Origin: Closterium sp. NIES-65 | Lineage: Eukaryota; Streptophyta; Zygnematophyceae; Desmidiales; Closteriaceae | Reading direction: 5' to 3' | DNA length: 64,000 bases | Assembly (NCBI GenBank): GCA_948144175.1 | Contig: CANXME010000222.1 | Coordinates: 62,001 to 126,000 of the forward strand | Part shown: positions 4,481-57,639 of the stretch, in pieces | Numbering within the stretch: position 1 is the first letter of the stretch | Layout: each line of letters starts with the position of its first letter | Program-made: the position numbers and the translations under genes | Notes under the pieces: generated by a model | Seen by the model: only the letters and a program-made list of their open reading frames with translations | Database searches by the model: none | What the model was told of the DNA's origin: nothing

Positions 4481-4509
4481 AAAAGATCGCGCCTCGGGGG
4501 GCGCTTCGG

Positions 4510-4554
4510 TGGGCCCAAAAAAAAACGGTCCGTAGAAGGACCCGCTCTATACCA
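4510..4554 (-). promoter_or_regulatory. Extended primer binding site of copia A
   Basis: On the plus strand this reads as a degenerate 3' half of initiator tRNA-Met: GGTGGGCCCA, then an A-run, GGTCC, and GCTCT-ATACCA against the LTR. The element strand therefore carries its complement, starting TGGTATAGAGC. The match goes well past the usual 12-18 bases. Confidence 0.7.
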
Positions 4555-4832: not shown

Positions 4833-5008
4833 TGTCAGAATGTTATTATCTAGCCTATAGTGGGGTGCTCTATAGCGAGTATAACCCTGTTAGGGTTTGC
4901 TATATGTATCCCAACTGCTGCTAGTGAAAGTCCTCCTTTGTTCATTTCTCTCTTGCCTAACTAGCTAAACCCTAGCCATGGCTCCTCACTGTGCTTACCA
5001 TAGTAACA
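4833..5008 (+). repeat. 5' LTR of the split small LTR element
   Basis: 176 bp, starting TGTCAGAATG and ending TAGTAACA. It is paired with 14083-14258, which has the same length and order of blocks. Confidence 0.88.
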
Positions 5009-5078
5009 TAGTTTCAGAGCATTTACACTCCTAGCCTGTGGGTCCACCTAACTGCTTCCGCTGCTACTCAGTGTATTG
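5009..5078 (+). promoter_or_regulatory. Extended primer binding site, near full-length initiator tRNA-Met complement
   Basis: Right after the LTR the sequence reads TAGTTTCAGAGC, then CCTGTGGGT, CCACC, GCTTCCGCTGC and ACTC, in the order of the reverse complement of plant initiator tRNA-Met. The tRNA itself has GCAGCGGAAGC, GGGCCCA, CCCACAGG and GCTCTGATACCA. About 65-70 bases are covered with small gaps. Confidence 0.75.
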
Positions 5079-5084
5079 CACGCC

Positions 5085-5520
5085 CCGTGGCGTGCGACGG
5101 ATTTTTCTTCCCGCCGCGCGCTCGGAGCGTGCGGCGGTTTTCTGCCCGCCGTGCGCCCCGGGGCGTGCGGCGGTTCTCTGCCCGCTGTGCGCCCGAGGCG
5201 CGCGGCGGCTTTCTGCCCCGTCGGTCCGCGCGTCGCCTCCGGGGGGCGCTTCGACGGGCGACGGGGACCAGCCCGTCGTCCCCGGTCGCCCGTCCCGGCC
5301 AGCGCGGGCTGCGCTAGCCCCGAGCGCGGCCCGTACGGGCTGCGCCCGGCCCGCGCGCGGCCCGTACGGGCTGCGCCAAGCCCGCGCGCGGCCCGTATGG
5401 GCTGCGCCAGGCCCGCGCGCGGCCCGTATGGCATGCGCCAGGCCCGCGCGCGGCTCGGGCTGCCTGCGCGCGGCTCAGGCTGCCTGCGCGCGGTTCGTCT
5501 GGCTGTGCCAGGCCCGTTCT
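5085..5520 (+). repeat. GC-rich tandem repeats in the leader of the split small LTR element
   Basis: A roughly 40-bp unit (GTGCGCCCCGGGGCGTGCGG and neighbours) is followed by units of CCCGCGCGCGGCCCGTACGG-type sequence. The first unit type is also found, inverted, in the leader at 44480-44700 of the small LTR element at 43748-45041, which links the two elements. Confidence 0.7.
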
Positions 5521-5940
5521 TCTCTGCCCCTGAGCTGCCCGCTGTACCCCGTGCTTCTGACGGCGCCCCACCCCTGCTGCTGCCCGTTCTCCTCAATCAG
5601 GGTTTGGGGGTGGGGGGTATGGGGGTGCAGTTTCTGTGCGCCGTTCCACTACTCCTCTTCCTCCTCCGTCTCCCGCTGCTGCAGCTGCCGCTCAGGGGGG
5701 TGGGTGTGTGGGAGCCGAAGGAGTGGTGCTAGGGGGTGTCGTGGGAGTGGAGCTAGGGGTGCAGCAGGGGGTGTGTGATAGGGGTGTGGGGCAGCTGGGG
5801 GGAGTAGAGGCAGCCGTCGTGTCGTCAGCAGCGCCAGTAGTCCGGAGGCTACAATCTCCGGTAGTCGCCAGTCGCCTATGGGTCAGTTGCTCCAGTCAGG
5901 AGGCTACAATCTCCGCGGAGCCAGTTACTCCTGTAGTCCA

Positions 5941-6066
5941 TGTCAAACTCATATGCAATAGTCTGTGTAGGCTGTAGTGGGGTAGACAATATGAGGTACT
6001 ACACTTTTAGGTTTTCCTACTTGTACCCACCTGCTTGCTAGTTCATTCATTCCTTGTTCTTTCACA
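5941..6066 (+). repeat. 5' LTR of copia B (126 bp)
   Basis: Starts TGTCAAACTCATATGC, ends TTCTTTCACA, and is followed by the primer binding site. It matches 13768-13878. Confidence 0.9.
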
Positions 6067-6118
6067 TGGTATAGAGCAGGTTCCCTAGTGGGAACGTTTC
6101 CTAGGGCCCACCAAATAT
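6067..6118 (+). promoter_or_regulatory. Extended primer binding site of copia B
   Basis: TGGTATAGAGCAGGTTCCC is followed by GGGCCCACCA further on. Both blocks lie in the order of the complement of initiator tRNA-Met, from its 3' end to the anticodon arm. Confidence 0.7.
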
Positions 6119-6229
6119 CGATTTTTTTTCCTGCCCGGAGCGCGCTTCGCCCCTGCCCGAGTCGCGCCCCGTGTGCCTACCCTCTAGTCGCGTCCCCTGC
6201 CCTTGGTGGCCCGTCGCGCTCCCCTACGG

Positions 6230-6620
6230 CCCCGTAGCGGCCCCTCTCACGGCCTCTCACGACCCCTCTCACGGCCCTTCGCGGCCCCTTCAGGCACCTC
6301 GTGGCCCCTTCGCGGCCCCTTCACGGCCCCTTCGCGGCACCTTCGCGGCCCCTTCGCGGCCCCCTCACGGCCCCTTCGCGGCCCCTTCACGGCCCCTTCG
6401 CGGCACCTTCACGGCCCCTTCGCGGCCCCTTCACGGCCCCTTCGCGACCCCTTCACGGCCCCTTCACGGCCCCTTCACGGCCCCCCTCACGGCCCCTCGC
6501 GGCTCCCTTCGCGGCCCCTTCACGGCCCCTTTGCGGCCCCCCTTCGCGGCCCCCTCGCGGCCCCTTCACGTCCCCCCCCCCCTCGCGGCCCCCCTCGCGG
6601 CTCCCTTTGCGGCCCCGCCC
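6230..6620 (+). repeat. Leader array of copia B, 11-bp type
   Basis: Many tandem variants of CACGGCCCCTT and CGCGGCCCCTT. The open frames across this array are compositional. Confidence 0.75.
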
Positions 6621-6784
6621 CGCTGCCCGTAGCTGCCTCACCCCGTCGCCAGTCGCGGCCCCGCCGCGTCGCCCCCGCCTCGTCGCGACGCCCTGCGGGA
6701 CCCGCGAGGCCTGTGCGTCGCGACGCCCCTGCGGGACCCGCGTGGCGTCACCCCTCCCCGCCGCGGCGCCCTGCCCTAACCTGC

Positions 6785-7470
6785 GCCTTGGAGCAGCCGC
6801 CACTGCAGCAGCCACCCCTGGAGCAGCCGCCACTGCAGCAGCCGCCCCTAGAGAAGCCGCCCCTGAAGCAGCCGCCCCTGGAGCAGCCGCCCCTGAAGCA
6901 GCCGCCCCTGGAGTAGCCGCCACTGCAGCAGCCGCCCCTGGAGCAGCCACCCCTGGAGCAGCCGCCCCTGGAGCAGCCGCCCCTGCAGCAGCCGCCCCTG
7001 GAGCAGCCGCCACTGCAGCACCCGCCCCTGGAGCAGCCGCCCCTGCAGCAGCCGCCCCTGGAGCAGCTGCCACTGCAGCAGCCGCCCCTGGAGCAGCCTC
7101 CCCTGCAGCATCCGCCCCTGGAGCAGCCGCCCCCGAAGCAGCCGCCCCAGGAGCAGCCGCCACTGCAGCAGCCGCCCCTAGAGGAGCCACCCCTGCAGTA
7201 GCCGCCCCCGCCCCTAGAGCAGCCGCCCCTGCAGCAGCCGACCCTGGAGGAGCTGCCCCTGTAGCAGCCGCCCCTGGAGCAGCCACCCCTGCAGCAGCCG
7301 CCCCTGGAGCAGCCGCCCCTGCAGCAGCCGCCCCTGGAGCAGCCGCAACTGCAGCAGCCGCCTCTAGAGCAGCCACCCCTGGAGCAGCCACCCCTACAGC
7401 AGCCGCCCCTGGAGCAGCCGCCCCTACAACTACCGCCCCTGGAGTAGCCGCCCCTGCAGTTGCCGCGGGG
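6785..7470 (+). repeat. Leader array of copia B, 15-bp type
   Basis: About 45 imperfect copies of GCCGCCCCTGGAGCA, open in several frames on both strands (Ala-Ala-Ala-Pro-Gly type). It lies upstream of the SLTPQQLREW repeats. I see no independent gene. Confidence 0.75.
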
Positions 7471-7609
7471 CCCTCGCCCTACAATGGTAGCGGCCTCGCC
7501 GTTGCCGCCGTCGTCCGCCTGCCCTTCTCACCACTGGTGAGCACTGCCCTGCCTGTACTGCTGTTACTGCTGCTCTTGCTGCTACTGCTCATTCTACTAC
7601 TACTGCTGC

Positions 7610-8610
7610 TCCTAGCGTGGCCAGATGCAGCTCCAGCGCCGTCCGCGTGAGTCCCTCACCCCCCAACAGCTTCGTGAGTGGAACGCTAGTTGGGGTTATA
7701 GGGGTGGCCGCGCTGCGACTACTGCTATTGCTATTGCTGCTGCTACTGCGGCTACCACTGCTCCTGCTGCTCCTGCCGGTGGCCAGATGCAGCTCCAGCG
7801 ACGTCCGCGTGAGTCCCTCACGCCCCAGCAGCTTCGTGAGTGGTACGCTACTTGGGGTTGTCGGGGTGGCCGTAGTGGGAGTCGTCATGGAGTGAGTAGT
7901 TCAGCAGCTGCTTGTAGTGGCCAGGTGCAGCTGGAGCATCGTCCGTGCGCGGTCCTTTCGCCCTAGCCGCTTCGTGAGTGGTACGCTCAGCGTGGCGGGT
8001 CACGGGGTACTGCTCGCTGTCCGTACGTCATTCGCACTGGTGCTCGGACTGGTCAGCCTGGCGGGACGTTTGGTCACAACGAGTCCCGCTGCTTTGCCCG
8101 TCTGAGCGACGCCTGGCGTACGGAGTTTGGCGACGCTGCTAAGCTCCCCGACTGGGTGGAGCTGCTTAGGCTGCGGGTAGATATCTATACTCTTGACTAT
8201 GATGCTATCCTCACTGCCATATATGCATTGCCTACTAGTGATGAGGGTGACTGTTACCTGTGTGTTCCGCCTGACCCGGACATTGAGGCTGCTGCTCTAG
8301 GTGCTGGTGAGGCTGCTGCTCTAGGTGCTAGTGCGTCTGCTGCCCCAGGTGCTGGTGAGTTTGCTCTCTCATGTACCACGTCGGCTCTGGCCTTACACAC
8401 GTTCACCCTTGACTCGGGTGCTTCCTGCTCCTTCTTTCGAGACCGCACCACGCTTACGCCGCTTAGTCGGCCACTTGCGGTCTCCCTGGCGGACCCCTCT
8501 GGGGGTCCTGTCCTTGCCCACTCTCCACTGTCTTGCCGTGTCTGGCAGCCCCCTCTGGCACCCTGTCAGGTCTCTACCTCCCCTCGTTCTCTACGAACTT
8601 GGTGAGTGGT
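7610..8610 (+). pseudogene. Copia B LREW repeats, zinc motif and protease region
   Basis: RESLTPQQLREW occurs in tandem near 7650 and 7810, with a third degenerate copy near 7940. A variant of the long-spaced Cys/His motif lies about 8020-8110. The protease active site LDSGAS lies about 8405-8425. Fossil retroelement part. Confidence 0.8.
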
Positions 8611-8829
8611 GCTGATCTGCAGGATGGGGGGGTTGACCAGTTCACTCCTGCGAGTCAGCGGGTGACCCAATGTACGTGTGCTCGGATGGGCCGACACTTG
8701 GCCACGTTTACCCGTCAGCCGGGGTCGAGCCTGTACACACTGACTACTGAGTCTCCTCAGGTAGTTGCGTCGGGTCAGGTGTTTGCTGCAGGGTCCAGGT
8801 CTCGTCCTGAGTCTGCTCCCTGCTCGTGT

Positions 8830-9800
8830 CGTCTACTGTCCCACCAGACTCTCCTCTGGCACCACCGCCTTGGTCACCCCTCCCTGCCTCGCCTCCGAGG
8901 CATGGCCTCCCGTGTCCTTGTCTCTGGTCTCCCCCAGTCCCTCCCTCCCGTCCCTCCGAGGCCTGCCCCTACCTGCGTTCCCTGCGTCGAGGGGCGGCAG
9001 CGCGCCGCCCCTCACTCCTCCGAGTTTCCTCCGACAGAGGCTCCGCTGCAGACTCTTCACATGGACGTGTGGGGCCCCGCCCGCGTCCATGGCCAGAGTC
9101 ACGAGCGTTATTTCCTGTTGGTGGTTGACGACTACTCACGTTACACTGCCTTTTTCCCCTTGCGCAGCAAGGGTGACGTCACTGATGTGTTGATCGACTG
9201 GATCCGCGCAGCTCCTCTCCAGCTCAGAGAGAGTTTCGGCTCGGACTTTCCTGTTCTGCGTCTGCACTCTGACAAAGGCGGGGAGTTCTCCTCTGCCAAT
9301 CTGGGAGCCTTCTGTCGTGCACAGGGCATCCTCCAGACCTTCACGCTTCCGGCCTCTCCACAGCACAACGGGATTGCTGAGCGCCGCATTGGCATGGTCA
9401 TGGACGTCGCTTGTACGTCAATGATCCATGCCGCTGCTCCCCATTTTCCGTGGCCGTTTGCGGTTCAGTACGCAGCGCATCAGATCTACCTTCAACCCCG
9501 GGTCTCCTTGCCAGAGACCTCCCCCACCTTGCGGTGGACCGGGAAGGTTGGCGATGCGTCTGCGTTTCGTGTCTGGGGATCTCGGGCGTTTGTCCGCGAC
9601 TTGTCTACGGACAAGCTGTCCCCCCGTGCTGTTCCCTGCGTCTTCCTTGGCTTCCCCCCTGACGCGCCTGGTTGGCAGTTTTACCACCCCACCTCGCGCC
9701 GTGTTCTGTCCTCCCAGGACGTCACCTTTGACGAGTCGGTGCCTTACTACCGTCTCTTCCCCTACCGCACTGCGCCCCTCCCCCCACCGCCGCTCTTCCT
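8830..9800 (+). pseudogene. Copia B GAG-pre-integrase and integrase region
   Basis: WHHRLGHPS and CVPCVEG mark the zinc-binding part. HMDVWGP, VVDDYSRY, HSDKGGEF and NGIAERR mark the catalytic core. The WGSRAFVRDL and CVFLGFPPDAPGW blocks close the domain. Confidence 0.92.
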
Positions 9801-9899
9801 TGCGCCAGGTCCCCCCCGGGTAGACCCCCTCCCCCCTAAGGGTCCTGCCCCGTCAGGTGTGTCCCACGTAGACGCAGTCGAGCCTGTCGAGGTAGCTGT

Positions 9900-10060
9900 T
9901 GACTCTGGTGCTGCTAGGGGTGCTGAGCCTGGGGGTGCTGAGTCTGGGGGTGCTGAGTCTGGGGGTGCTGAGTCTGGGGGTGCGGAGCCTGGGGGTACGG
10001 AGCCTGGGGGTACTGAGCCTGGGGGTGTCGAGCCTGGGGGTGCTGGGTCTGCTCGTGTGG
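9900..10060 (+). repeat. 15-bp minisatellite in the linker of copia B
   Basis: Tandem GGTGCTGAGCCTGGG and GGTGCTGAGTCTGGG units, the plus-strand counterpart of the arrays in A, D and E. It is followed by SPQELREWFARRW, a variant of the gag-side LREW motif. Confidence 0.85.
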
Positions 10061-10954
10061 CCTCTGGCGGTGCTGGGTTTGGGGCCCCTTCGGGTGCTTC
10101 GTCTCGGCGGGAGCTACCCTCTCCACAGGAGCTGCGCGAGTGGTTTGCCCGGCGCTGGAGCCGTGCTGCTGGAGCTGGAGGTGCTACTGTTACTGCTGAC
10201 CCTAGGGTCGGCACTGGAGTTACTGGAGCCACTGGTCCCGGAGGTGCTCGTACTGGCGGTACTGGAGCTGCTAGGATTGGGGGTGCTGCTGGAGCTGCTT
10301 TAGCTGGTGCTGCTGGAGCTGCTGGAGCTGCTGGAGTAGGTGCTGCTGGAGCTACTGGAGCTGCTGGAGCTGGAGCTGCTAGGGGTATTGGCGCTGGTGG
10401 TGCTACTGGCGCTAGTGCTTCTGAGGGTGCTGGAGTTGGCGTTGTTGGAGCTGGAGGTGCTGCTCGCGCTGGTGCTGCCGCTCAGGGTACTGGTGCTGTC
10501 CCTGCTGGTTCATAAGGTGCTGCGCGGCCGCGGCCGTACTTCGTTCCGCTCCTTCAACAGGTTCTTGGTCTCCCGCCCTTTACTGGTCCTGCTTCTCCCT
10601 TAGAGTGTCCACAGGCTGTCTAGTTGCGGTCGCAGTTACAGCCAGCCTCCCCCCTGCCTGCTCCTTCTCCCTACACTGGTCCTACTGGAGGTCTTGCTGA
10701 GCGTCGTGAGCCTGCGTCTTGCCTTGCGTCGCCTGTTCGTGCTGCTCGCACTAGTAGTCGTGCTCCGCGTCCACATCCTCCTGCGGTCCCAGGCACACAC
10801 CAGATGGCACTGCGTCCTTCCACTGCTCCTCTACGTGTCCCGTTGCCGTCTCCTCAAGAGTCCTCTCTTCCTGTTCTTGCTGACCCGGAGTCTGACTCTC
10901 TTCGTGCTGCCAGTCCTACTGTCACGCGTCTCCTGGCTACTGTTGTCACTGACC

Positions 10955-11727
10955 AGGCCTGTCGCTTGCAGGGTGTTTGCCCTGTTGGACCTTGAATTCC
11001 AGGGCTGGGTTGCCCTTGAAATTTGAAATTGATGGGTTGAGAAAATTGTGGCCCTGATTCATTACAAGGCTGATTTCGGGCTTAGGTCTGGAGTGTGAAG
11101 GGTAGATTTTAGGCGAGCCCTGGAACAAAGTCTTTCTAACTTCCCCTCCCACTCCTCCCCCCCCCTCCCCCCCCCAAACTCCTCCATTCCCCCTCCCCCC
11201 GTTTCTATTTTGATTGCATTGAAGCCAGTCAAATTTGGAGTTGCGTGGCTGGACCACAGATTCAACTCAACCAACAACTGGTACTTGTACCAATTACAAC
11301 CTCGCTCCCATCCCATGACACAAAGAGACAGTAGCATGAACCAACATGCAGCAGCAAAACACATCTCAGATCCCCGTCATGTTGTGCACCCTCAGGCCTG
11401 AATGGGCATAGCAAGCAGCAAAACACATCTCAGATCTTTGCTAAGAGTTGGAAGAGGAGGAAGTCTGTTACGCGTGCGTAGTGAATGACGCTAACTAGTT
11501 TTTCTATTGCTAACTAGCTAATTTGATACTAGCGGAGTGCACCTGTCAGCTTTGTGGTAGAACTGAGGCTGCAGAATTTTCCGCGGCAAACCTGATTTAC
11601 AGGGAGGAATAAATTTCAGCCCTGAAGCCTAAAGGGCCGAGATTCGCCCCGACTCTGCTAAATACAGGGTAGTACATGCCAGGCCCCCTGATTTGTCCGG
11701 GGGGGCCAAAACGAAACGACAACCCTC
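10955..11727. mobile_element. hAT-like non-autonomous DNA transposon (773 bp) inside copia B
   Basis: The copia sequence is interrupted exactly between two copies of TCACTGACC (10946-10954 and 11728-11736); the corresponding DNA in E and D is continuous there. The insert's ends are imperfect inverted repeats: AGGCCTGTCGCTT on the left against AGGGTTGTCGTTT read in from the right, 11 of 15 bases alike. An 8- to 9-bp target duplication with such ends fits the hAT superfamily; a 9-bp duplication would also allow a MULE. No transposase is encoded. It has a C-rich tract (about 11139-11200) and a short internal duplication AAAACACATCTCAGATC. Confidence 0.8.
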
Positions 11728-12049
11728 TCACTGACCCTTCCTTTGAGTCCACTGCTGCGTCTACCTTAGTTGCTGAGCTTGTCGACTTTGCTGCTCGTTG
11801 TCGTCTCGACTACGCCGCTAGTCTCGTTGCTGAGTCTGCGTCTGTCTGTCCTCCGTCCGTCGGGGGTGAGTGTGCTCTTAGCACGGACGTCCTTGAGGAC
11901 AGGCAGGAGGAGTTCCAGTGTTTTGCTGCTGCTTTGCCTCATCTCGTGTCCACGCTGATTGCCCCTGAGGGAGACCCGGATGCACCAGACATCCCGACTC
12001 CTTGATCGTACGCTAAGGCGATCGAGGGTCCCTACTCCTCACAGTTCAG

Positions 12050-12790
12050 TAAGCCATGGACGCAGAGATGGCTTCGTGGAAGTCCACAGGCACCTACGTC
12101 GACGAGGTTCCCCCACCTAGGGCGAACATCGTAAGTGGCATGTGGATTTTCAGGGTGAAGCGGCCGCCGGGTTCTCCGCCTGTCTTCAAGGCGCGTTACG
12201 TGGCTCAAGGCTTCAGTCAGCGGCAGAGAGTTGACTACTTTCAGACCTTCTCTCCCACCCCGAAGATGACCACTCTTCGGGGGCTGCTGCACATAGCCGC
12301 TCAGCGCGACTACGAGCTTCACTCTCTTGACTTTAGCACAGCGTTCCTGCAGGGCAGCCTGCACGAGGAGATCTGGCTGCGCCGCCAACCTGGCTTTACT
12401 GGGTCGTTTCCTCCTGGTACCCAGTGGAGCCTCCGGCGGCCAGTCTACGGTCTCCGCCAGGCGCCCCGTGAGTGGCACGACACATTGAGGACTACACTTG
12501 CGGCTCTTGGGTTTGCTCCCTCTACTGCCGACCCGTCACTGTTTCTGCGCACCGACACCTCTTTGCCGTCGTTCTACATCCTCGTGTACGTCGACGACTT
12601 GGTCTTTGCCACTGCTGACACTGCTGGACTCACCCACGTGAAGTCCGAGCTGCAGAAGAGACAGACGTGCACAGACCTGGGTGAACTGCGCAGCTACCTT
12701 GGCTTGCAGATCAACTGGGACAGAGCATAGCGCACCATTACCCTGACTCAGTCACACATGGTGCAGCAGGTCCTTCAGCGCTTCGACTTC
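12050..12790 (+). pseudogene. Copia B reverse transcriptase region
   Basis: Characteristic copia RT blocks are visible: VKRPPGSPPVFKARYVAQGF, SLDFSTAFLQG, VYGLRQAPREW and YVDDLVFA, the last being the catalytic YVDD. Fossil retroelement part. Confidence 0.92.
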
Positions 12791-12949
12791 ACGTACTCCT
12801 CGCCTCAGGCCACTCCTCTGTCTACTCGCCACTCGCTCTCAGCTCTGCCTTCGGATGAGTCCGTAGAGCCGAGTGGCCCGTACCCAGAGCTTGTTGGCTG
12901 CCTCATGTACCTGATGACCTGCACATGACCTGACCTTGCATACCCTCTT

Positions 12950-13570
12950 AGCATCTTGGCACGCTATGTTGCTCCTGGGAGACACCGATCAGAGCACATG
13001 GCTGCAGTGAAGAGGGTGTTGCGCTACTTGTGCAGTACGTCGGGCATGGGGCTAGTGCTTGGAGGGCGACGTTCAGTGGTCCTTACAGGTCACGCAGACG
13101 CTTCTTGGGCTGACGACCAGGCTACGCAGCGGTCGTCAAAGGGTTACACCTTCAGCCTTGGTTCCGGCTCTGTTTCGTGGCGGTCTACCCGCTCGTCTTC
13201 TGTTCTCGGCTCCAGCTGTGAGGCTGAGATCTACGCGGGGGCCATGGCTGCACAGGAGCTACGCTGGCTCACCTACCTGCTGACTGACCTAGGAGAGTCG
13301 CCTTGTTCTCCTCCTGTTCTGTACGTAGACAACAAGGCCATGCTGGCCTTGTGTCGGGAGCACAGACTGGAGCACAGAACGAAGCACATTGCTCTTCGCT
13401 ACTTCCTTGCTCGTGAGCTACAACAGCGTGGTCAGGTGCGCCTTGCTTACGTGGCCTCTGAGGCCAACACTGCTGATATCTTTACCAAGGCACTTCCGCC
13501 TTGTGATCATCAGCGCTTCTGTACGATGCTAGGTCTTGTGCCTACTTGGCCTCACTTGCTCACTTCTTGA
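12950..13570 (+). pseudogene. Copia B RNase H region
   Basis: Copia RNase H blocks are visible: VLTGHADASWA, SSCEAEIYA, LYVDNKAMLAL and RTKHIALRYF, then the typical NTADIFTKAL near the end. Confidence 0.9.
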
Positions 13571-13767
13571 CCTTGCTTGTACTGTGATCTTTCTATACCT
13601 GCACTTGCTTGTTTACCTTTATATACGATCTTGCATGTGAACTGGCCTTGTGGCCTTGAACTTGTGCTCGGAATGTGTGGTGACGTTGTGATCCACCCTG
13701 AGCTTGCTTTGCTTTTCTTGACTGGTCTTGTGACCTCTTGTTCTCCCCCACTTTGCCTATGGGGGTG

Positions 13768-13878
13768 TGTCAAACTCATATGCTATAGTCTGTGTAGGTT
13801 GTAGTGGGGTAGACAATATAGGGTACAACACTTTTAGGTTTTCCTATTTGTACCCACCTGCTTCCTCGTTCTTTCACA
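13768..13878 (+). repeat. 3' LTR of copia B (111 bp)
   Basis: Starts TGTCAAACTCATATGC and ends CTTTCACA. It is 15 bp shorter than the 5' copy because of one internal indel. Confidence 0.88.
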
Positions 13879-14082
13879 GTCCGGGCCCTTGATTCGGTAG
13901 CCACTGAGCTAGCAGCTCCTGTGTGTATGCAGCTTCAGCAGTCACCTCCCATGTTCTCGCCCCCACAGTCTCTCCTCCTCCTCACTTGCCCTTTGTGATA
14001 GCCTCTAGCTTTGCTTGCAATTGTGAACCTGCTCTATGACTGCTTGTTCTGCTGATTACACCCCACTTTGGCTATGGGGGTG

Positions 14083-14258
14083 TGTCAGAATGTTATTATC
14101 TAGCCTGTAGTGGGGTGCTCTATAGCGAGTACAACCCTGTTAGGGTTTGCTATATGTATCCCAACTACTGCTTGTGAAAGTCCTCCTTTGTTCATTTCTC
14201 TCTTGCCTAGCTAGCTAAACCCTAGCCATGGCTCCTCACTGTGCTTACCATTGTAATA
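14083..14258 (+). repeat. 3' LTR of the split small LTR element
   Basis: 176 bp, preceded by the polypurine-like GCTATGGGGGTG and followed by GACAA, the target duplication that also precedes 4833. Confidence 0.88.
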
Positions 14259-14335: not shown

Positions 14336-15269
14336 CTCGGCTCGGCGGTGCTCTTACGAGGGGCGGGTGGGTAGAGGTCCGCAAGCGGTGGGGCAGGGCC
14401 GAGGCGCGCTGGCAGGGACAGGGCCGCGACAGGGCGGCAGAGGAGTGCCACGCCTCGGCTGTAGGGCAGTGCCGGGACGATGGCGGCGTTTGTCACGGCA
14501 GCGGCTGCGGCGGTTGCCTCAGCAGGAGCGGCAACGGCTGTCACAGCAGTAGCGGCGGCGGCGACCGGACGTAGAAGAAGCAGCAGCGGCAGCAGGCGCG
14601 ACGGCAGCTGCTGCTGGGGCGGCAGGGTCGTGAAGAGCCATGGAGGGGCCGCGAAGGGGGCCGCGACGAGCCGCGAAGGAGCCGCGGAGGGGCCGTGAAG
14701 GGGCCGCGAAGGGGCCGCTAAGGGCGGCGAAGGGGCCGAGAAGGGGCTACGAGGGGCCGTGAAGGGGTCGCGAAGGGTGGCGACGGGGCCGAGAAGGAGC
14801 CGCGAGGGGCCGCGAAGGGGCCGCGAGGGGCCGCGAAGAGCGGCGAAGGGGCGGCGAGGGGCCGCGGAGGGGCCGCGAAGGGCCGTGAGAGGGGCCGCGA
14901 AGGGCCGCGGAGGGGCCGCGAGGGAGCCGCTAAGGGGCCGCGAAGGGCCGTGAGAGGGGCCGCGAAGGGGCCTTTAAGAGGGCGCGACGGGCCGCTAAGG
15001 GCAGGGGACGCGACGGGAGGGCAGGCACACGGGGCGCGACTAGGGCAGGGGCGAAGCGCGCTCCGGGCAGGTAAAAAAAAATTCGTTTTAGTGGTGAGCC
15101 CTAGGAAACGTTCCCACTAGGGAACCTGCTCTATACCATGTGAAATAGTGAGGAATGAATCAACTAGGAAAGTGTGTGATACAAATATGAAACCCTAGAA
15201 ACTTGTACCCCTTAGTCTCTACCCCACTAGAGCCTATAGACACTATGTCATATATATCTGATAGTCACA
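14336..15269 (-). mobile_element. Copia stub G (5' LTR plus leader only)
   Basis: Right to left it has a 5' LTR (15139-15269), an extended primer binding site, a poly-A/T run with CCCGGAGCGCGC as in elements B, C and E, and a GC-rich leader array of GGGGCCGCGAA-type units. It stops near 14336 against ordinary AT-rich DNA, so the coding part is missing. Fossil. Confidence 0.75.
15139..15269 (-). repeat. 5' LTR of copia stub G (about 131 bp)
   Basis: It ends (element sense) in TATTTCACA followed by TGGTATAGAGCAGGTTCCC. The outer end is less certain because it reads TGTGAC rather than TGTCA. Confidence 0.7.
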
Positions 15270-28085: not shown

Positions 28086-28262
28086 GAGTCCTTCAACAGC
28101 GTATGGGCGATGTAGTCAACATCTACCAAGGGAAGGTCTACACTAATGCAAGCGTGGCGAGGGAGGAACTGTTGTTGTTCTGTCGGCAGCAAATGATTTT
28201 GCCGCGCTTTCGTTATAGCCGCCCAAACCTCATAGTGTTGCAGTGTAACACAGTGCACCGCC
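28086..28262 (+). pseudogene. N-terminal fragment of a MULE transposase
   Basis: After a possible acceptor (ACCCCCAG) the frame reads MGDVVNIYQGKVYTNA ... LFCRQQMILPRFRYSRPNLI. This aligns with the start of the MULE protein at 35.9-39.4 kb (DAVNIHLGKVYPTADAV ... LYCRQQMVSSYFHYNRSDLI). It stops at the left end of copia element E, so it was cut there. Confidence 0.75.
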
Positions 28263-28264
28263 AT

Positions 28265-31440: not shown

Positions 31441-31659
31441 CAGACAAAGGGACTCTACCAGACTCAGCACCGGGAGGAGAAGCAGTGGTCAGTGTGTACA
31501 GGCTCAACCCTGGCTGGCGTGTAAACGTAGCCAGGTGGCGACCTGTGCTAGCCTCTGTGCAGTGTGTCACCCGCTGACGAGCGGGAGTGAACTGGTGGAC
31601 ACCCACATCCTGTAGGTCAGCACCACTCACCAGGCTCGTAGAGAACGAGGGGAGGTAGA

Positions 31660-32640: not shown

Positions 32641-33370
32641 CTAGACCAACGAGGTCGGCCGCAGCAGCAGAGGCGACAGAGGGTAACAGGGGGGAAGGAG
32701 AACACCCCTCAAAGATGGGGGTGCGGGGGTCACCACGAGAGGCCCCTACAGCGACTATGCTCTTCTCGGCCGCTAGCAAGGACTTCTCGAGGAGGTCGAC
32801 AGTGAGGGTGGTGGGACAGACAGAGAGAAACTGGTCCCTAACAGCACGAAGGGACTTAGGGAGACGGGTGACTAGAAAGTAGAGGGTGATGTACATGGGA
32901 GGGGGGTTTTCGGCGCAGAAGGCAGCAGGAAGCGCATCTTGGTAGCGAGTGTCACTAGCGCGAAGGTGGGTAAAGAGGTTAGCGACTGTAGGAAAGGCAG
33001 CAAGGTCAGCGAAGAGGTACGGTAGCATGAGGCGGCTCAGCGTAGCAGAGGAAGGGGAGGAGTAGCGCGCAACCACAGCGTCGTACAAGGCCTGAGCGGT
33101 CTTGCACTGACTAAAGTGTGCGCGCTCGGAGGAAGGGAGGTGGCGACGCACAGCAAGACGTGCAACAGCATCGCGTGAGGCCCACTTGGAGCGCACAGTG
33201 GGGTCAGCATCAGCAGGAGGGGCAGGTACAGCGTCAGAGACAAAGTCAAAGAGAGAAACTTCATCTACCGTATCGCAAAGCAAGTACAGCTAAAGGTCGT
33301 TGACCCAGACCGCAAAGTCAATGGCGCGACCCTCAGCGTCAAAAGCCAGGACACTGGGGGTGGCCATGAT
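32640..33370 (-). pseudogene. Copia E gag core
   Basis: It has a copia-type gag with the blocks KWASRDAVARLAVRRHLPSS, ALYDAVVARYSSPSSATLSR and FPTVANLFTHLRASDTRYQD. Such gag forms the particle shell. It is homologous to the gag of element C (54188 onward). A Gly-rich run (32325-32620) lies between it and the zinc-motif. Fossil part. Confidence 0.85.
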
Positions 33371-34354: not shown

Positions 34355-34406
34355 CGATGTGGTGGGCCCTAAGCACAGTTCCCACGGGGGAACCTGCTCG
34401 ATACCA
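34355..34406 (-). promoter_or_regulatory. Extended primer binding site of copia E
   Basis: The plus strand reads GGTGGGCCCTA ... GGAACCTGCTCGATACCA against the LTR. These are the blocks of initiator tRNA-Met from anticodon arm to 3' CCA, in order. Confidence 0.7.
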
Positions 34407-34538
34407 TGACAGAATTAGAACGAGAATGAAATGACTATGAACGAAGTGAGTACAAATAGGAAACCCTAGTTGGGTTGTACCCCCTATGGGATACCCCACT
34501 ATAGCCTACACAAATAAGTAAGCTATAATATTCTGACA
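34407..34538 (-). repeat. 5' LTR of copia E (132 bp)
   Basis: In element sense it runs from TGTCAGAATATTATAGC to ATTCTGTCA, followed by TGGTATCGAGCAGG. Confidence 0.88.
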
Positions 34539-36310: not shown

Positions 36311-39300
36311 TGCCCTTGCATTCCCGGCTGCCCTTCCAACCCTTGAAGCCCTCCCGTTTCCTCCTGCCCATCCCTCCCTTGCTGCCCTCCCCTTCCTTGC
36401 CTCCCTCCTCTCCCTTGCTGCCCTCCCCTTCCTTGCCTCCCTCCTCTCCCTTGCTGCCCTCCCCTTCCTTGCCTCCCTCCTCTCCCTTGCTGCCCTCCCC
36501 TTCTTTGGCGCCCTCCCCTATCAGGACCTTCCAAACAATCTGCGCCTCCTCCTTCTTCTGTGGAAGACACCACCCCGGACCTGCCTCTACCTCTCCCTCC
36601 ACCCCTTCCCCGTTGATTTCTACCTCGTCCACGCCCTTCCTCCGAATGCCCCACATGCACATCGTCGTCGCCTACGTGCCCCACCACTTCCCCCTGTATG
36701 TTGAGACATTGCAACCTCCGTAATCGCCCCCGAACCACGTCGTCCGCACTCCTCAGGCCACCCCCCTTTGAAGTTCCCTCACCAGTACTACTTCCTTGCG
36801 CACCACCCAAGTGCAACCCTTCGGAACCGGCCCCCATATCATCCATCACTGTTTCGGGAGGGAGATCCCCGGCAGGTACAAGCACCCTCCCAAATATTTC
36901 CGTCAACACCGAATCTGCCGGTGTGCTCCCATTCTCCTCTCCATCCCCCTCATCTTCCCCGCTGCCCGACTCCTCGTCCGGTTCGCTCTCATCGTCACTC
37001 TCACCAGTGGTATGGATACAATGAATACCTCTCCGATGACTTCGGTTACATGCGCTACAAGGGGCTACATGTACCGCGCCGTCCGCCGTGGTCATCGTCT
37101 GCACAGCCAATTGCCCTGCTGGGGTTTGTAATGCCTCCCACAACACCCGGTTTGTAGCCCGGACCTCACATGTCCTAGAGTTATGCCCCATCTCACCACA
37201 TTTGCCACACTTGCGTAGTTTGATAGGGTCGACCTCTCCTGTCGAGCGAATCCTGTTCTTTTTTGGCCGGCCTGCCCTTTTGGAGTAGACTGGCGGTAGA
37301 GTAATGCCATCCGGGATCACTGACGTGGGGTCGAGGGTCCGAATCGGGGTCTTGTACACCTGCTGCAGCGCCGAAACCGTGTGGCTGTTGTGTATCACAG
37401 CGTGGGCCTTGTGCCCTGCATTCTTGAACACAACAAAAATGTGGACGCACGGCAGCCCATACTCCCTGTTGTTGGGGTATGGGGGTATTGGTGTTGTGGA
37501 ATAGGATGGTTGGTTATTGAAATGATTGGTCAAAGAAACACATACACATAGTCATGCGCTCAAGCTGTAGACGTAAAGAAACAGTCCCATATGTGGCATA
37601 CAGTCCCTCCCATCCATGGCCACCACTTTTTCCCTTGCTGCCCCCCCTTATGTCGTCGTCCCCCTTTCGCATGCTGCCTTACATTCGCTTGCTGATCCAG
37701 CCCGTGTTGTTTGGCACAATATCCCTCCCTCCATCGATCTGACCCCCTCTCCTACTGCCTCACTTTCCATTGTTGCCCTCCTATGCCCTTCCTTGCTGAC
37801 CCCATTTCTTGCTGCCCCCATCTCCCTTGATGCCCTGCAAGATCCCCCCCCCTCCCCCACCCCCATGCTGTCTTCACATTCCCTGGTGCTCCCCAAACCT
37901 TGCTGCCCCCATTCCCTTGCTGCATGCCCTACTTATTGTACCCCTTGCTCTTGCTGGGCTCCCATGTCTTACCTGGTGTAACCACACGTGCAGCTGGTTG
38001 CTGAAGGATTGTTGGGGTTAGTAGTCACGACTCTCGATTCCACCTTCAGCTCCCCCTCTCCTCGGCTCACAATGAAACGGTTCTCGCCGGACCCTTCAGC
38101 ATCGTATCTCTTCCCTTCGTTGCAGTTTGCCTTGATAATTGGTCGTGTCCTTGGCGGGAAGACCGCACCAGTGAGTTGTGAGTACTCGAGGCGCCTCTTT
38201 TCAATACTCTTTGAGAGCTTGGCCGTCAAGAGGTGCAACACTTGAGGGGGACTTTTGTCACGCAGCCCTGAGAGTGATGCGTGGTGTGACTCAACGGGAT
38301 TGGAGGTCATGCAGCCAAAACGCGGAGCACCGAAGTGCGCCGAGGCCCACTTCTTATGCAAATTGTTGTCAACAAGATATGCCTTCCCACCAGGGCATTC
38401 TTGCTCGATTTTCTCCATCGTTTTGTGGTAAACCCCCGGAGTAAGAGCCGCTGCAGCTGCGAGGATCCTCCCATCCAAGTCTGTCCGAAACTTGTTTTTG
38501 AAATTGCGCACCAAATGAGTGATGCAATATGACTCCCGTATTAGGGGGAGACAAGCTGCTGTCGCCGACTTCCATGCACCTCCCCTATCATGCATAATCA
38601 CAAAATCGGGGGAGTTCACCTCCGGTACTGCCTCTAGCAAGAGTTGAAAGAGAAAGGTACACGACTGCTTGTTCTCACCCTCGACCCACGCACACCCCAA
38701 CCTAACAAGCTGGTGTTGACTGTCCAGCATGCAAATGTTCAAAGTGTAACCCCCCCATCTCGTCTTATTATGACAACCATCTGCAAAAAGGATAGGCAAA
38801 CAGTTCATACCAGACTCCTTGGCACCTGGATAGATGACACCGGCCCGATAGAAGTTGTTACCCTGCCTCACCAATGACACTTTACACGACGGGTTTTCGA
38901 CCTCAAACTTTCTCAGCAGGTCCTCCATGTACTCGAATCCTTTATCTCCCCCAAAAAGCTCATCATCACTCAACTCCCAAAGCACCTCCCGTGCGAGAGT
39001 ATAAGAATACTGCACACCCAGCACCTGATGAACACGGCTCATCAACGCTGCCGGTCTAACCTCGCCGTGCATTCTCATCTCACATGCAACCTCTATCACC
39101 TCTTCTCGTTGGACCCTAGCTGCACCGACTGTACACCTATCCGCATGCTCCAAATGAGCTGTCGTGACCCTGAGGTTATCACAAACAGGCCCTCGAACGA
39201 TGATACGAAAAGGGCATAGCCCGGCGTCACTACTCACCTCACGTTTGGGCCAACCCTTCCCCTGCATACTCTTGCATCGCACCTCAATGAGATCGCTACG

Positions 39301-39423
39301 ATTGTAATGAAAGTACGAAGATACCATCTGTTGCCGACAGTACAGCCGCACATCTGCCCTCACCGCGTCTGCAGTAGGATAGACTTTCCCTAGGTGGATG
39401 TTGACTGCATCATTCTCCTGCAT
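35920..39423 (-). CDS. Mutator-like (MULE) transposase, two exons
   Basis: Exon 1 spans 39423-37973 and exon 2 spans 37465-35920, joined by a 507-bp GT-AG intron (CACCAG|GTAAG ... CAACAG|GGAG). The splice keeps frame and completes a SWIM finger, CTCGYTREYGLPCVH (C-x-C-x8-C-x-H). Exon 1 has the MULE catalytic core: LFADGCHNKTRWGG (first Asp), IMHDRGGAWKSA (second Asp) and SNPVESHHASLSGLR (Glu). Exon 2 adds an AT-hook-like GRPKKNR, a CCHC knuckle (CGKCGEMGHNSRTC), an acidic stretch and a long GMGGPQ-type tail. The start is taken at MQENDAV; an acceptor-like CCCCAG just upstream means a 5' exon may exist. Terminal inverted repeats were not found. It could be an active MULE or a host-adopted FAR1/MUSTANG-like gene. 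Confidence 0.8.
36345..36520 (-). repeat. 36-bp tandem repeat in the MULE tail
   Basis: Three to four copies of a unit with TTGCTGCCCTCCCCTTCC and TTGCCTCCCTCCTCTCCC. It codes a Gly/Gln/Arg-rich stretch (RGGQQGRGGRQG). Confidence 0.8.
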
Positions 39424-39433
39424 CTCAAAGGTA

Positions 39434-40247
<814 letters not shown>

Positions 40248-43742: not shown

Positions 43743-44479
43743 GTGGGTGTCAAAATAAGCGAGAGTGAGCTAAGTTTTAACTAGGGCCTAGGCTTAGGAG
43801 CCTAGGCCCAACTTAGGTATCGAGTGAGTTTGGGCAAGGGTGAGAGGATCGAGGAAGTTGGAAAGGAGAAAAGATGGGTTTCACTATAGGTTCAAGGAAC
43901 ATATAGCATAGGAAACAAATGAAATTGGTGCACCACCTACAAAGCACAATAACTACACTACAACTACAAGCAGTTATAAAATATGTCAATTATATTTCGA
44001 CACGCCCCCATAAGTGCTTGTAGGTAGAAGTATAGTTACGCCCCCTGAGGGGGTACACCATGCAAAATAACAAGCAACAGCAGGTACTGCAGGCGGGCTA
44101 ACTCTGGATGGTCACCCACTCCATCTCCTCACCCTCCTCCTTCCCCTCCCCCACACTGCTACAGGAGCAGCAGAGAGGGGGGGGAAAGAGGAGAGGTGGA
44201 GGGACGGCTGCTGGTTGCCTCACACCCGCCACCTCGGTGCCAATCCCCCTTCTCCCCCACACCCTCACACCCTCCCCCCCAGCGGCAGCTGCAGCAATGG
44301 GAACGAAAGGAGGAGGAGGGGAAGGGAAGGAAATGACCCAAAACTCCAACACCCGCCACCCCCATACCCTCCTCCCCACGGCTGCAGGGAGACAAAGGAG
44401 GAGGGGGGTGGGCGGGAAGAAAGCCGCAGAGCGGTTACTATATGTTGGCGCAGGTAGGTCAGGGGCGGCTGCAGTGAGG

Positions 44480-44700
44480 ACGGGTGCGGAAAGGCCCGTC
44501 GTGTGCCAAGGGGCGCATGACGGGTAAGTTTAAGAGTAGGGCCCGTTTGTGTGCCTCGGGGCGCACGACGAGCAGGGCACCGTCGCGTGCCACGGGGCGT
44601 ACGACGGGCAGGTTTAGGGCACCGTCGCGTGCCACGGGGCGCGCGACGGGCAGAGAAAGAGTCACACGCCAACCGGGGGCGGGACTAGAAGAAAATCGCC
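44480..44700 (-). repeat. GC-rich leader repeats, about 42-bp type
   Basis: Three to four units around GTGCCACGGGGCGCACGACG. These are inverted homologues of the units at 5085-5240 in the other small LTR element. Confidence 0.75.
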
Positions 44701-44719
44701 ACGCGCCCTAGGCGCGCGA

Positions 44720-44787
44720 CCGGAAAAGTAGCAGCGGAAGCTTAAGGCGGGCCCACACAGGCCAGATCGAAACGTGCTCTGAATCCA
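44720..44787 (-). promoter_or_regulatory. Near full-length initiator tRNA-Met complement in the leader
   Basis: The plus strand shows GCAGCGGAAGC, GCGGGCCCA, CACAGG, CCAG, ATCGAAAC, GCTCTGA and TCCA in tRNA order up to the LTR edge. Compare initiator tRNA-Met GCAGCGGAAGC, TGGGCCCA, CCACAGG, ATCGAAAC, GCTCTGATACCA. Only the anticodon 3' side and single bases differ or are lost. Confidence 0.8.
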
Positions 44788-45046
44788 TGTCAAAATAAGC
44801 GAGAGTGAGCTAAGTTTTAACTAGGCATAGGCTTAGGAGCCTAGGCCCAACTTAGGTATCGAGTGAGTTTGGGCAAGGGTGAGAGGATCGAGGAAGTTGG
44901 AAAGGAGAAAAGATGGGTTTCACTATAGGTTCAAGGAACATATAGCATAGGAAACAAATGAAATTGGTGCACCACCTACAAAGCACAATAACTACACTAC
45001 AACTACAAGCAGTTATAAAATATGTCAATTATATTTCGACAGTGGG

Positions 45047-53153: not shown

Positions 53154-53285
53154 TGTCAGAACATCATAGCTTATGCATTTTGTGTAGGCTATAGTGTGGT
53201 AGCCCATAAGGGGTACAACCCAATTAGGGTTAGTACTTGTACCAACTCTTGCATAGTCCAATTTATTCTCGTTATAGTTTTCTCA
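53154..53285 (+). repeat. 5' LTR of copia C (132 bp)
   Basis: Starts TGTCAGAACATCATAGC and ends TTTTCTCA, followed by TGGTATCGAGCAGG. Closest to the LTR of copia E. Confidence 0.88.
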
Positions 53286-53335
53286 TGGTATCGAGCAGGT
53301 TCCCTCGTGGGAACTCTTCCTAGGGCCCACCGATT
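53286..53335 (+). promoter_or_regulatory. Extended primer binding site of copia C
   Basis: TGGTATCGAGCAGGTTCCC is followed by CCTAGGGCCCACCG, again the order of an initiator tRNA-Met complement to the anticodon arm. Confidence 0.7.
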
Positions 53336-54476: not shown

Positions 54477-55957
54477 TGTCAGAATCTTAGCTTGGCTAAG
54501 GAGCCATAGCTAGTGAGAAGTTCGAGTGAGTTTGAGTTAGGAGAGTCGAGAAAGTTGAAAAGAGAAGAGGAGTGGTTTCACTATAGAGCGAGCAGTACAT
54601 ATAGGCAAGATGAAAGGTGCACCACCAAAACAGAACATTATATAACTACACTAGTCTACACTACAGGCAATTACAAAACAATATATAGATTTATATATTA
54701 TTCTGACACGCCCCCATAAGTGCCTGTAGGGAAGAATATGCAGTCAACGCCCCCATAATGGGGTACACCAAGCAGAGTGCAGTTGAAGTAGCAGCAGTAG
54801 GCAGGAGCAGTGACAACCAGTGCAGAAAACAGAGAACAGAAGGGAGAGAGGAGAGAGAGAGGGAGAGAGAGGAGAGGAGGTGGTAGGCTCTGGTTGGTCA
54901 CCCTCTACATCCCCTCACCCTCCCCCTCCCCCTCCCCATCCCCCTCACACTGCTGCAGGAGCAGCAGAGGGGGGGGGGGGGGGGGGGGCAAACGGAGGAG
55001 AATGGGGCCGTAGGGCCAGGGGACCAGACATCACCCATCACCCCCACACCCGCCACCCCCAGTCCCTCCCCGGGCTCCCCCACACTCCCACACCCTCCCC
55101 CCCAGCGGCAGCAGCAGCAGAGGGAACAAAAGGAGGAGGAGAAGAGGGGGGGGGGGAGGGGGGGGGGCGACGCACGGCCTCCCCGGGCGCCAAAGCAAAC
55201 GGCAGAGGGGGCGACGACTGCCCCCCCTTTTCAGGTCACGGCCCCCGAAGGAGCCGCGACAGGTGACGGGAAGAAGGGGGGGGGGGGGGGTGCACGTGCC
55301 CCCGGTGTGCCGTAGCTGGTGACGAGGCATGGCCGGGACGGGGTCGGGACCGCAGGTGTAGGAGACGGGCGGCTCACGGGCGGGCGGGTGGCTCGCGGAC
55401 TAGCGGCTCAGAGGCGGCGGCTCACGGGCGGGCGGCGCATGGGCGGGCGGTGCACGGGCGGGCGGCCCACGGGTGGCGCCGGCTCACGGGCGGGCGGCTC
55501 ACGGGCGGGCGGCGCACGGGCGGGCGGCTCACGGACGGGCGGCGCACGGGCGGCGAGGCCGCAGTGAAGGGCGGCGAGACCGCGACGTAGGGCGGCGGGG
55601 CCGCGACAGTAGAGAGGCGGCGAGGCCGCGACAGAAGGGCACACCACGGGGCGTGCATGTTACTCAGTAGCAGCGGAAGCATTAAAGTGGGGCCCACAGG
55701 TCAGGACCTTGTCGCTCTAATACCATGTCAGAATCTTAGCTTGGCTAAGGAGCCATAGCTAGTGAGAAGTTCGAGTGAGTTTGAGTTAGGAGAGTCGAGA
55801 AAGTTGAAAAGAGAAGAGGAGTGGTTTCACTATAGAGCGAGCAGTACATATAGGCAAGATGAAAGGTGCACCACCAAAACATAACATTATATAACTACAC
55901 TAGTCTACACTACAGGCAATTACAAAACAATATATAGATTTATATATTATTCTGACA
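54477..55957 (-). mobile_element. Very young small LTR element (TRIM-like) inside copia C gag
   Basis: The 232-bp LTRs at 54477-54708 and 55726-55957 differ at about one position and are flanked by the target duplication CGACG (54472-54476, 55958-55962). In element sense the right LTR is followed by TGGTATTAGAGCG and a long initiator-tRNA complement; a purine-rich tract precedes the left LTR. The roughly 1-kb interior has G-runs and GC repeats but no coding domain. It looks whole and recent, and is related by LTR sequence to the element at 43748-45041. Confidence 0.92.
55672..55725 (-). promoter_or_regulatory. Near full-length initiator tRNA-Met complement in the leader
   Basis: The plus strand shows GCAGCGGAAGC, GTGGGGCCCA, CAGGTCAGGACC and CGCTCTAATACCA in tRNA order up to the LTR edge. 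Confidence 0.78.
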
Positions 55958-56759: not shown

Positions 56760-57420
56760 CCCCTCCCCTTAGCAGCTCCGTGAGTGGTACGCTGCACGCC
56801 AGAGGGGTGGGGGTACTGGTCCGTGCACCTACGTCCTACGCACCGGCGACCGCGCGGGTGAGCAGTGCGGGGGTGCGCACTCCACCCAGCGCTGCTTTGG
56901 CCGCCTGACGGACGCTTGGCGTCAACAGTTCCCTGAGGCCACAGAGATCCCTCGCTGGGGCGAGCTGTCTAGGGTGGGAGTGGTTGTCTTTGACCTTGAC
57001 TTTGATGCTATTCTTGCTGCCATGTATGCTGTGACTGTTAGTGATGAGGGTGACTGTTACCGGTGTTTTCCGCCCAACCCGGGCATTGAGACTCCTGCTC
57101 TAGGTGCTGGTGAGGCTACTGCTCTAGGTGCTAGCGAGGCTGCTGATCTAGGTGCTGGTGAGTCTGCGCTCTCAGGTACTGCGTCGGCTTCGGCCTCCCA
57201 CACCTTCACACTTGACTCGCGGGCTTCTCGCTCCTTCTTTCGAGACCGCACCACACTCACGCCACTTGGTCGGCTAGTTGCAGTCTCTGTGGCAGACCCC
57301 TCTGGGGGTCCTATCCTTGCTCACTTCTCCACTGTCCTCCCGTGTCCGGCGGCCCCCTCTGGCACCCTGTCTGGTCTCTACCTCCCCTCGTTCTCTACGA
57401 ACTTGGTGAGTGGTGCTGAC
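56760..57420 (+). pseudogene. Copia C LREW motif, zinc motif and protease region
   Basis: QLREWYAARQRG, then CTYVLRTGDRAGEQC ... H-x4-CFGRLTDAW (about 56824-56912), then the protease-type block FTLDSRASRSFFRDRT near 57210-57255. Confidence 0.85.
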
Positions 57421-57639
57421 CTACAGGATGCGGGGGTTCACCAGTTCACTCCTGCGAGTCAGCGGGTGACCCACTGCACGGACGCTCGGACAGGCCGACA
57501 GTTGGCCACATTTACACGTCGACGGGGGTCAAGCTTGTACACACTGACCACTGCGTCTCCTCCAGTCACTGCGTCTGGTCAGGTAGCTGCGTCGGGTCAA
57601 GTGTTTGCTCCAGCGTTCAGGTCTGGTCATGAGTCTGCC

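Follow-up and report, generated by a model that had tools for sequence, protein, structure and literature searches.

Leaders of copia-type LTR retrotransposons in the alga Closterium carry conserved blocks complementary to several parts of initiator tRNA-Met, a probable multipartite primer-binding site

Introduction

In the literature consulted, extended contacts with the primer tRNA have been worked out for yeast Ty1 and Ty3 and for retroviruses. In Ty1 the primer-binding site (PBS) lies at 95-104, and boxes at 110-116, 144-149 and 162-168 are complementary to the T or D hairpins (PMC5454406). A survey of plant elements reported tRNA-Met and 1/2tRNA-Met PBSs, identified where 12 bp or more matched a tRNA 3' end, plus other criteria (PMC6317226), and the PBSs of fungal Helenus elements are described as matching anticodon loops (PMC10886601).

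The 64,000-nt stretch of Closterium sp. NIES-65 DNA analyzed here (the window) contains LTR-element leaders that match initiator tRNA-Met (iMet) in separate blocks. Judged from their sequences, these leaders probably constitute a multipartite PBS for iMet in Ty1/copia-type LTR retrotransposons and related short elements. Closterium is a zygnematophyte, a member of the class sister to land plants, and the many diverged copies in this alga serve as natural replication, pointing to the leader positions that matter. The main text of the genome paper of this strain (PMC10407611) contains none of the terms retrotransposon, LTR or copia.

Results

Initiator tRNA-Met of Closterium

The first iMet query was a plant tRNA sequence, with which the genomic copies agree. 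All genome-wide counts refer to the 874-Mb Closterium assembly, a single genome, in which the iMet core was found at 32 places (25 exact and seven with one mismatch; a backwards control gave 0). The 20 of these 32 places that were read have two main T-stem forms, and CCA is not encoded. As the leaders match the CCA, which is absent from the iMet genes read, the match points to mature tRNA. A tRNA gene lying inside the leader was considered and rejected: the leader match includes CCA, without a counterpart in the 20 iMet genes read, and ARAGORN (bacterial setting) detected no tRNA in either the window or the 20 loci sampled. Positions in the tRNA are linear counts along the 75-nt molecule including CCA. 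Sampling beyond the window used twenty 10-kb pieces spaced along one contig (the even sample, 200 kb), which together with the window make 264 kb. Two pattern scans of viral contigs gave 0 matches.

Leaders with a D-arm block

A sequence-only reading of the window had claimed that the DNA next to the LTR of a short element (T1) matches iMet from the D arm to the CCA. This was borne out. The plus strand at 44720-44787 reads GCAGCGGAAGC, GGGCCCA, CACAGG, GATCGAAAC and GCTCTGA..CCA in tRNA order and ends exactly at the LTR; the element strand (minus) thus has the iMet complement adjoining its 5' LTR (Table 1). The T1 PBS has two mismatches to TGGTATCAGAGC. The same reading called the complement near full-length, which is a fair description of one class of leaders only, the D-arm class (n=9: T1, T2, T3 and six leaders of the even sample), and even there the match is blocky, the anticodon region of T1-T3 being short by 5-7 bases and T2 also being without most of the T loop.

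Table 1 Features of the window, with positions counted from its first nucleotide
Feature	Position	Strand	Details
T1, short LTR element	43748..45041	-	LTRs 43748-44002 and 44788-45041; target site duplication (TSD) GTGGG on both sides
T1 PBS TGGATTCAGAGC	44776..44787	-	Abuts 5' LTR; iMet 3'-end complement including CCA
T1 anticodon-arm block CCTGTGTGGGCCCGCC	44746..44761	-	Both anticodon-stem strands matched; loop region partly missing
T1 D-arm block GCTTCCGCTGC	44731..44741	-	Complement of tRNA nt 12-22
T2, short LTR element	54477..55957	-	LTRs 54477-54708 and 55726-55957; TSD CGACG
T2 leader	55670..55725	-	PBS 55714-55725; CCTGTGG 55694-55700; D-arm block 55670-55680
T3, LTR element	4833..14258	+	LTRs 4833-5008 and 14083-14258; TSD GACAA
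T3 leader	5009..5064	+	PBS 5009-5020 (TAGTTTCAGAGC); CCTGTGG 5035-5041; D-arm block 5054-5064
Copia A, nested in T3	5941..13878	+	5' LTR 5941-6066; gag-pre-integrase/integrase ORF 8467-10515
Copia A leader	6067..6112	+	PBS TGGTATAGAGC 6067-6077 (one base short); contact GGGCCCACC 6104-6112
Copia B leader	15093..15138	-	PBS 15128-15138; hairpin; contact variant GGGCTCACC 15093-15101
Copia C leader	34361..34406	-	PBS TGGTATCGAGC 34396-34406; hairpin; contact GGGCCCACC 34361-34369; LTR 34407-34538
Copia E leader	53286..53331	+	PBS 53286-53296; hairpin; contact GGGCCCACC 53323-53331; LTR 53154-53285
Further copia leader	4508..4554	-	PBS TGGTATAGAGC 4544-4554; contact GGGCCCACC 4508-4516; absent from the sequence-only reading

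The order of parts in the D-arm class is PBS, variable T region, CCTGTGG, variable loop region and GCTTCCGCTGC, together spanning about tRNA 12-75; in one sampled leader (L052 3429, minus) the match reaches tRNA nt 1. The T region forms a long hairpin in 3/9 of these leaders. Losses from the loop differ by subfamily: ATGGGCCCACC is kept in L052 5573, L042 8583 has another loop, and the loop is reduced in T1-T3.

By self-BLAST the LTRs of T1 are 99.2% identical over 255 nt and those of T2 are 99.6% identical (ends trimmed by two bases also present in the flank), and neither interior contains an ORF of at least 250 aa. At about 1.3 kb and 1.5 kb, T1 and T2 are longer than the TRIM size of <1000 bp given in PMC10886601. 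T3, which is interrupted by the nested copia A, has LTRs 96.6% identical over 174 nt, the 3' LTR ending in TA. The T3 and copia C LTRs have 58 nt in common (77.6%), a likeness which suggests that T3 may be mobilised by these copias. Repeated hairpin-like units of the GTCGCRCGCC type were seen by eye inside T1 and T3 (window 44490-44660 and 5080-5300).

Copia elements and leaders with their own hairpin

The window ORFs at 8467-10515 (+), 541-2364 (-) and 56773-58539 (+) have gag_pre-integrs and rve domains, and an ORF at 30833-33289 (-; gag_pre-integrs, rve) lies upstream of one at 28230-29615 (-; RVT_2), the two being taken as one element. In a search with the RVT_2 protein (28230-29615, -), all named entries among the best 120 matches are Closterium proteins. 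Assignment to Ty1/copia follows from the gag-pre-integrase, integrase and RVT_2 domains with integrase before reverse transcriptase, together with the TG..CA LTR ends and 5-bp target duplications of T1, T2, T3 and copia A. The flanks of copia A, GTCCA and GTCCG, differ by one mismatch; its 5' LTR is just 126 bp and the right copy about 15 nt shorter. Other coding sequences of the window include a MULE transposase-domain ORF (37969-39507, -) and an RVT_1-domain ORF (20372-22618, +).

In the sequence-only reading the copia elements keep the 3' half of the tRNA complement. They do not keep all of it: only the acceptor and anticodon-arm blocks are kept, and a hairpin of the leader's own lies between them. 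In this hairpin class the PBS is followed by the small hairpin, a variable spacer, GGGCCCACC, which lies 36-40 nt from the PBS start and matches the 5' strand of the anticodon stem-loop, and then variable sequence. The hairpin is GTTCCC-TAGT-GGGAAC in copia A and GGTCC-TTCTAC-GGACC in the leader at 4508-4554 (-), downstream of which lies the copia integrase ORF 541-2364 (minus). Within the window, hairpin-class leaders precede copia coding regions. The best stem directly follows the PBS in 17/18 leaders with exact GGGCCCACC, and the 18th (L054) has a weaker stem in the MFE fold. A universal leader hairpin was rejected, as six of the nine D-arm-class leaders (T1, T2, T3, L041, L052 3429 and L054 9370) have no stem above shuffles. 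Note that after GGGCCCACC, T-runs and CCTGCCCGGAGCGC, or GAAGCGCGCCCCGAGGCGCG, recur across elements (window 6113-6146, L039, L050 and L051).

Strength of the tRNA match

A local-alignment scan against iMet covered the whole window on both strands. The seven top-scoring places are all leaders (T1 64, C 53, T3 48, T2 46, E 42, A 38 and 4484-4554 38); outside the leaders the highest score is 37, and copia B, at 36, ranks among such non-leader places. When the first 18 nt were left out, the scores of T1 (44), T3 (39) and C (36) were reached by 0/2000 dinucleotide shuffles and that of T2 (36) by one, and those of E (24), A (22) and B (20) by 21, 53 and 66 of 2000. Of 6394 window stretches (both strands, leaders included), one reached the score of T1, two that of T3, eight each those of T2 and C, 142 that of E, 321 that of A and 732 that of B.

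With the genomic tRNA forms, the scores beyond 18 nt were reached by 0-16/1000 shuffles for the nine D-arm-class leaders and by 0-68/1000 for 18 hairpin-class leaders, among which four are weak when taken one by one (A, B, E and L055 4157, 42-68/1000). Three plain-PBS sites of the same genome showed no excess beyond 18 nt (679, 908 and 983 of 1000 shuffles reached their scores). The sequence-only reading had staked its claim on two points, that shuffled leaders should score lower than the leaders and that the match should persist beyond 18 bases in other genomic copies, and both were upheld for the D-arm class. Chance resemblance arising from GC-rich sequence was rejected since shuffles and the reversed tRNA (scores 10-19) gave lower values, although A, B and E taken singly are still compatible with chance.

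Frequency, spacing and conservation of the second block

Use of a PBS motif blind to the following sequence gave 26 candidates in 264 kb. Three (window 60936 +, L038 8848 - and L052 3841 +) were judged by eye, on A-box/B-box-like sequence, to be SINE-like heads derived from tRNA; leaving them out of the counts gives 23 candidate LTR-type sites. Note that the TGGTATCAGAGC at window 60936 (+; related sequences at 25607, 25842 and 61044) belongs to a SINE-like head rather than to a PBS and could mislead PBS scans. The second block was present in 20/23 LTR-type sites (17 with exact GGGCCCACC, two with one mismatch and T2 with GGGCCCCAC) and absent from three. The even sample alone gave 19 candidates, two of them SINE-like, and 14/17 candidate LTR-type sites had the second block. 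In the 264 kb, where base count predicts about two exact occurrences of GGGCCCACC anywhere, there are 18, each preceded by a PBS-like site at a distance of 36-43 nt; 17 of these PBS-like sites have at most one mismatch and one has three.

Conservation was assessed as mean pairwise identity. Among 18 hairpin-class leaders this is 0.89 for the PBS and 0.98 for the contact GGGCCCACC, which is thus the better conserved of the two, and the 9-nt flanks of the contact give 0.58 before and 0.40 after. The nine D-arm-class leaders gave 0.79 for the PBS, 0.37 for the loop and 0.46 after the D arm; CCTGTGG, placed as the best match within the leader, gave 0.97 (8/9 exact) and the D-arm block, on which the leaders were selected, 0.94. 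The T arm has no separate conserved block in this class (T region 0.37), the anticodon arm being matched instead. Further conserved blocks complementary to the primer tRNA lie downstream of the PBS, as in a Ty1-type extended PBS. The proposal that extended pairing was kept agrees with these data: the blocks that match the tRNA have diverged far less than the adjoining sequence and their spacing is fixed in many copies, which at the sequence level points to retention. The conservation could partly be ancestry, though neighbouring sequence has diverged.

Genome-wide, CCTGTGG-N11-GCTTCCGCTGC was found at 944 exact places (backwards control 0). Among the 100 of these places that were listed (34 distinct fillings), CCTGTGG is mostly followed by seven bases agreeing with the tRNA complement GCCCACC. 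The first four majorities are G 97, C 96, C 97 and C 85; position 5 is G in 57 (a wobble partner), A in 14 and T in 26; positions 6 and 7 are C in 65 and 93; and the last four vary (63, 46, 46 and 62). For the hairpin class, AGGTTCCC-N4-GGGAAC-N8-GGGCCC was found at 12,047 places, out of 13,978 that have the hairpin itself (0 and 3 in the backwards controls). These genome-wide places are copy numbers, related by descent rather than independent cases.

Proposed contacts and cofolding

In the preferred multipartite arrangement the tRNA acceptor end would pair with the 11-12 nt PBS and the anticodon arm with the second block, whose start lies 25-43 nt from that of the PBS; in one class a third block would pair with the D arm. 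Leaders of the main copia class have their own small hairpin between the first two blocks, and this hairpin would face the tRNA T arm. The likely use is to select and hold the initiator tRNA, with its 3' end placed for the initiation of minus-strand synthesis. As the contacted GGG of the anticodon stem is an initiator hallmark, the second block could add initiator-tRNA specificity. From these patterns we infer pairing in particles, an effect on priming and selection as the cause of conservation. Several observations count against this arrangement: the missing bases are often from the anticodon loop, a natural single-stranded target, GGGCCC is palindromic and could serve another purpose, and conservation is lacking in the T region of the D-arm class.

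Cofolding with a genomic tRNA gave a mean ddG of -35.9 kcal/mol for the D-arm class, with 0/60 shuffles as low in all nine cases. The hairpin-class mean was -17.4 kcal/mol and the second contact formed in 15/18 complexes, with shuffles as low in 42/60 cases for E, 26/60 for L050 and 19/60 each for B and L042. Plain-PBS sites had a mean gain of 12.4 kcal/mol, and one (L057, -17.6) equals the hairpin-class mean. The models thus support the D-arm class and are equivocal for the hairpin class, for which the case rests on conservation and spacing. In 13/18 hairpin-class complexes, 7-10 pairs also formed between tRNA 12-22 and GC-rich sequence, such as CCCGGAGCGC, lying downstream of the contact, possibly a third contact or an artefact of GC content in these models.

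Origin and upkeep of the blocks

The alternative that fares best concerns origin: an ancestor may once have acquired a complement of the whole mature tRNA by reverse transcription, the present blocks being leftovers of selection or chance. We regard this as a serious possibility, although not the favoured account. It is suggested by colinearity, the CCA, near-tRNA spacing and loop losses that differ by subfamily, and the lost anticodon loop sits between tRNA CCCA repeats, as slippage would leave. However, such a capture is not needed, as the blocks could have been gained singly by selection, and as a pure relic it fails because the blocks are conserved and their neighbours are not. Whole-tRNA copying by an ancestor had also been put forward in the sequence-only reading, and the block order, near-tRNA spacing and CCA make it plausible. 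The capture is compatible with a multipartite PBS, as its origin. Combining the two, an ancestor may have captured a complement of the entire mature iMet, including CCA, by end-to-end reverse transcription of the primer, and its descendants, in >10,000 copies, may have trimmed it to a modular lock on the initiator-specific anticodon stem, plus the D arm in one class. If true, leaders with a CCA-end PBS and an anticodon-arm site would be candidate intermediates between whole-tRNA and half-tRNA priming.

GGGCCC could alternatively be a palindromic site for dimerisation of the element RNA, with the tRNA likeness due to chance. It is a perfect palindrome, exact in 16/18 hairpin-class leaders. However, the non-palindromic ACC is invariant in that class (columns 1.00), CCTGTGG and the D-arm block match the tRNA and are not palindromic, and GGGCCC is broken in 20 of the 100 D-arm-class places listed, all of which have the D-arm block and CCTGTGG because the pattern fixes both. 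We consider dimerisation improbable.

The blocks might also be refreshed by over-extension, in which synthesis of plus-strand strong-stop DNA continues through the primer tRNA; the over-long strand could then still pair at the second transfer thanks to the leader complement. The blocks do run in tRNA order from CCA, as far as tRNA nt 1 in L052 3429 (minus), and a primer over-extension sequence has been described in both lentiviruses and spumaviruses (PMC13191261). Copying of the tRNA into every new element would leave a PBS that matches the tRNA, but mostly this is not so: the one-base-short TGGTATNGAGC stands before AGGTTCCC at 12,582 places genome-wide, versus 1,008 for the perfect TGGTATCAGAGC (examples of the short form before the hairpin are at window 6067 + and 34406 -). 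No shortened acceptor matching the short PBS was found in the 20 tRNA genes read (of 32 places). These counts contradict routine, continuing copying of the primer tRNA, as read from sequence, although, with 1,008 perfect PBSs, some refreshing may occur now and then. Moreover, the last 12 tRNA bases were not matched exactly in 33 of the 37 T1-related loci read (counted by eye), and the reduced anticodon loop persists. Nor does complement directly follow an 18-nt PBS, where the hairpin class has its own hairpin and the T region of the D-arm class is divergent, though T1 keeps GATCGAAAC there. For Ty1 and Ty3 the primer sequence is reported as not inherited (PMC5371799), which argues against over-extension and with which the one-base-short PBS of Closterium fits. 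Over-extension is therefore very unlikely. The sequence data suggest instead that conserved blocks are passed on mainly from the parent element rather than refreshed. The prevalence of the one-base-short PBS before the AGGTTCCC hairpin also means that priming must tolerate a bulge.

Least credible is that the second block is itself a half-tRNA-Met PBS, used by present or ancestral elements primed from a tRNA cut in the anticodon loop: GGGCCCACC has the content expected (inferred from the tRNA), and Osser, Bryco and part of Gymco-II are reported to have 1/2tRNA-Met PBSs (PMC6317226), but it is the 3'-end PBS that adjoins the LTR, with the second block 36-43 nt further in, counted from the PBS start, so that priming there would shift the LTR border.

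Discussion

The best reading, by analogy, is that the Closterium leaders extend the Ty1-type extended PBS to an anticodon-arm contact and that the multipartite site likely works like that of yeast Ty1. It offers an explanation of initiator-tRNA choice, a test bed for primer-type switches and an annotation marker for such elements. Among the titles, abstract openings and passages covered by the literature search, we found no description of an anticodon-arm block beside a CCA-end PBS in an LTR retrotransposon; most subscription journals lay outside that search, and such a description may be in print.

Several described systems share features with these leaders. T1 and T2 resemble Helenus and TRIM elements in being short and LTR-bearing with tRNA-related sequence, but in Helenus the tRNA-like sequence is inside the LTR (PMC10886601), whereas the iMet matches of T1 and T2 are antisense and in the leader. 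Plant elements with 1/2tRNA-Met PBSs (Osser, Bryco) likewise carry a complement of the iMet anticodon side (PMC6317226); in Closterium, by contrast, the anticodon block is additional to a CCA-end PBS and away from the LTR border. As in the primer over-extension sequences of lentiviruses and spumaviruses, complementarity runs past the PBS, but there it is immediately adjacent (PMC13191261) and here it consists of separate blocks reaching the D arm. The bipartite PBS of Ty3 also uses iMet, contacting its acceptor, T and D regions, with segments at opposite ends of the RNA (PMC5371799), whereas the Closterium blocks lie within about 70 nt. The closest likeness is to the extended PBS of Ty1 (PBS plus Box 0, Box 1 and Box 2.1), also in a copia-type element with an iMet primer and short tRNA-complementary blocks downstream (PMC5454406). 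The Ty1 boxes address the T and D hairpins (PMC5454406), whereas the common second block of Closterium addresses the anticodon arm; unlike Ty1, the main Closterium class has a hairpin between the second block and its PBS, and only one class has a D-arm block.
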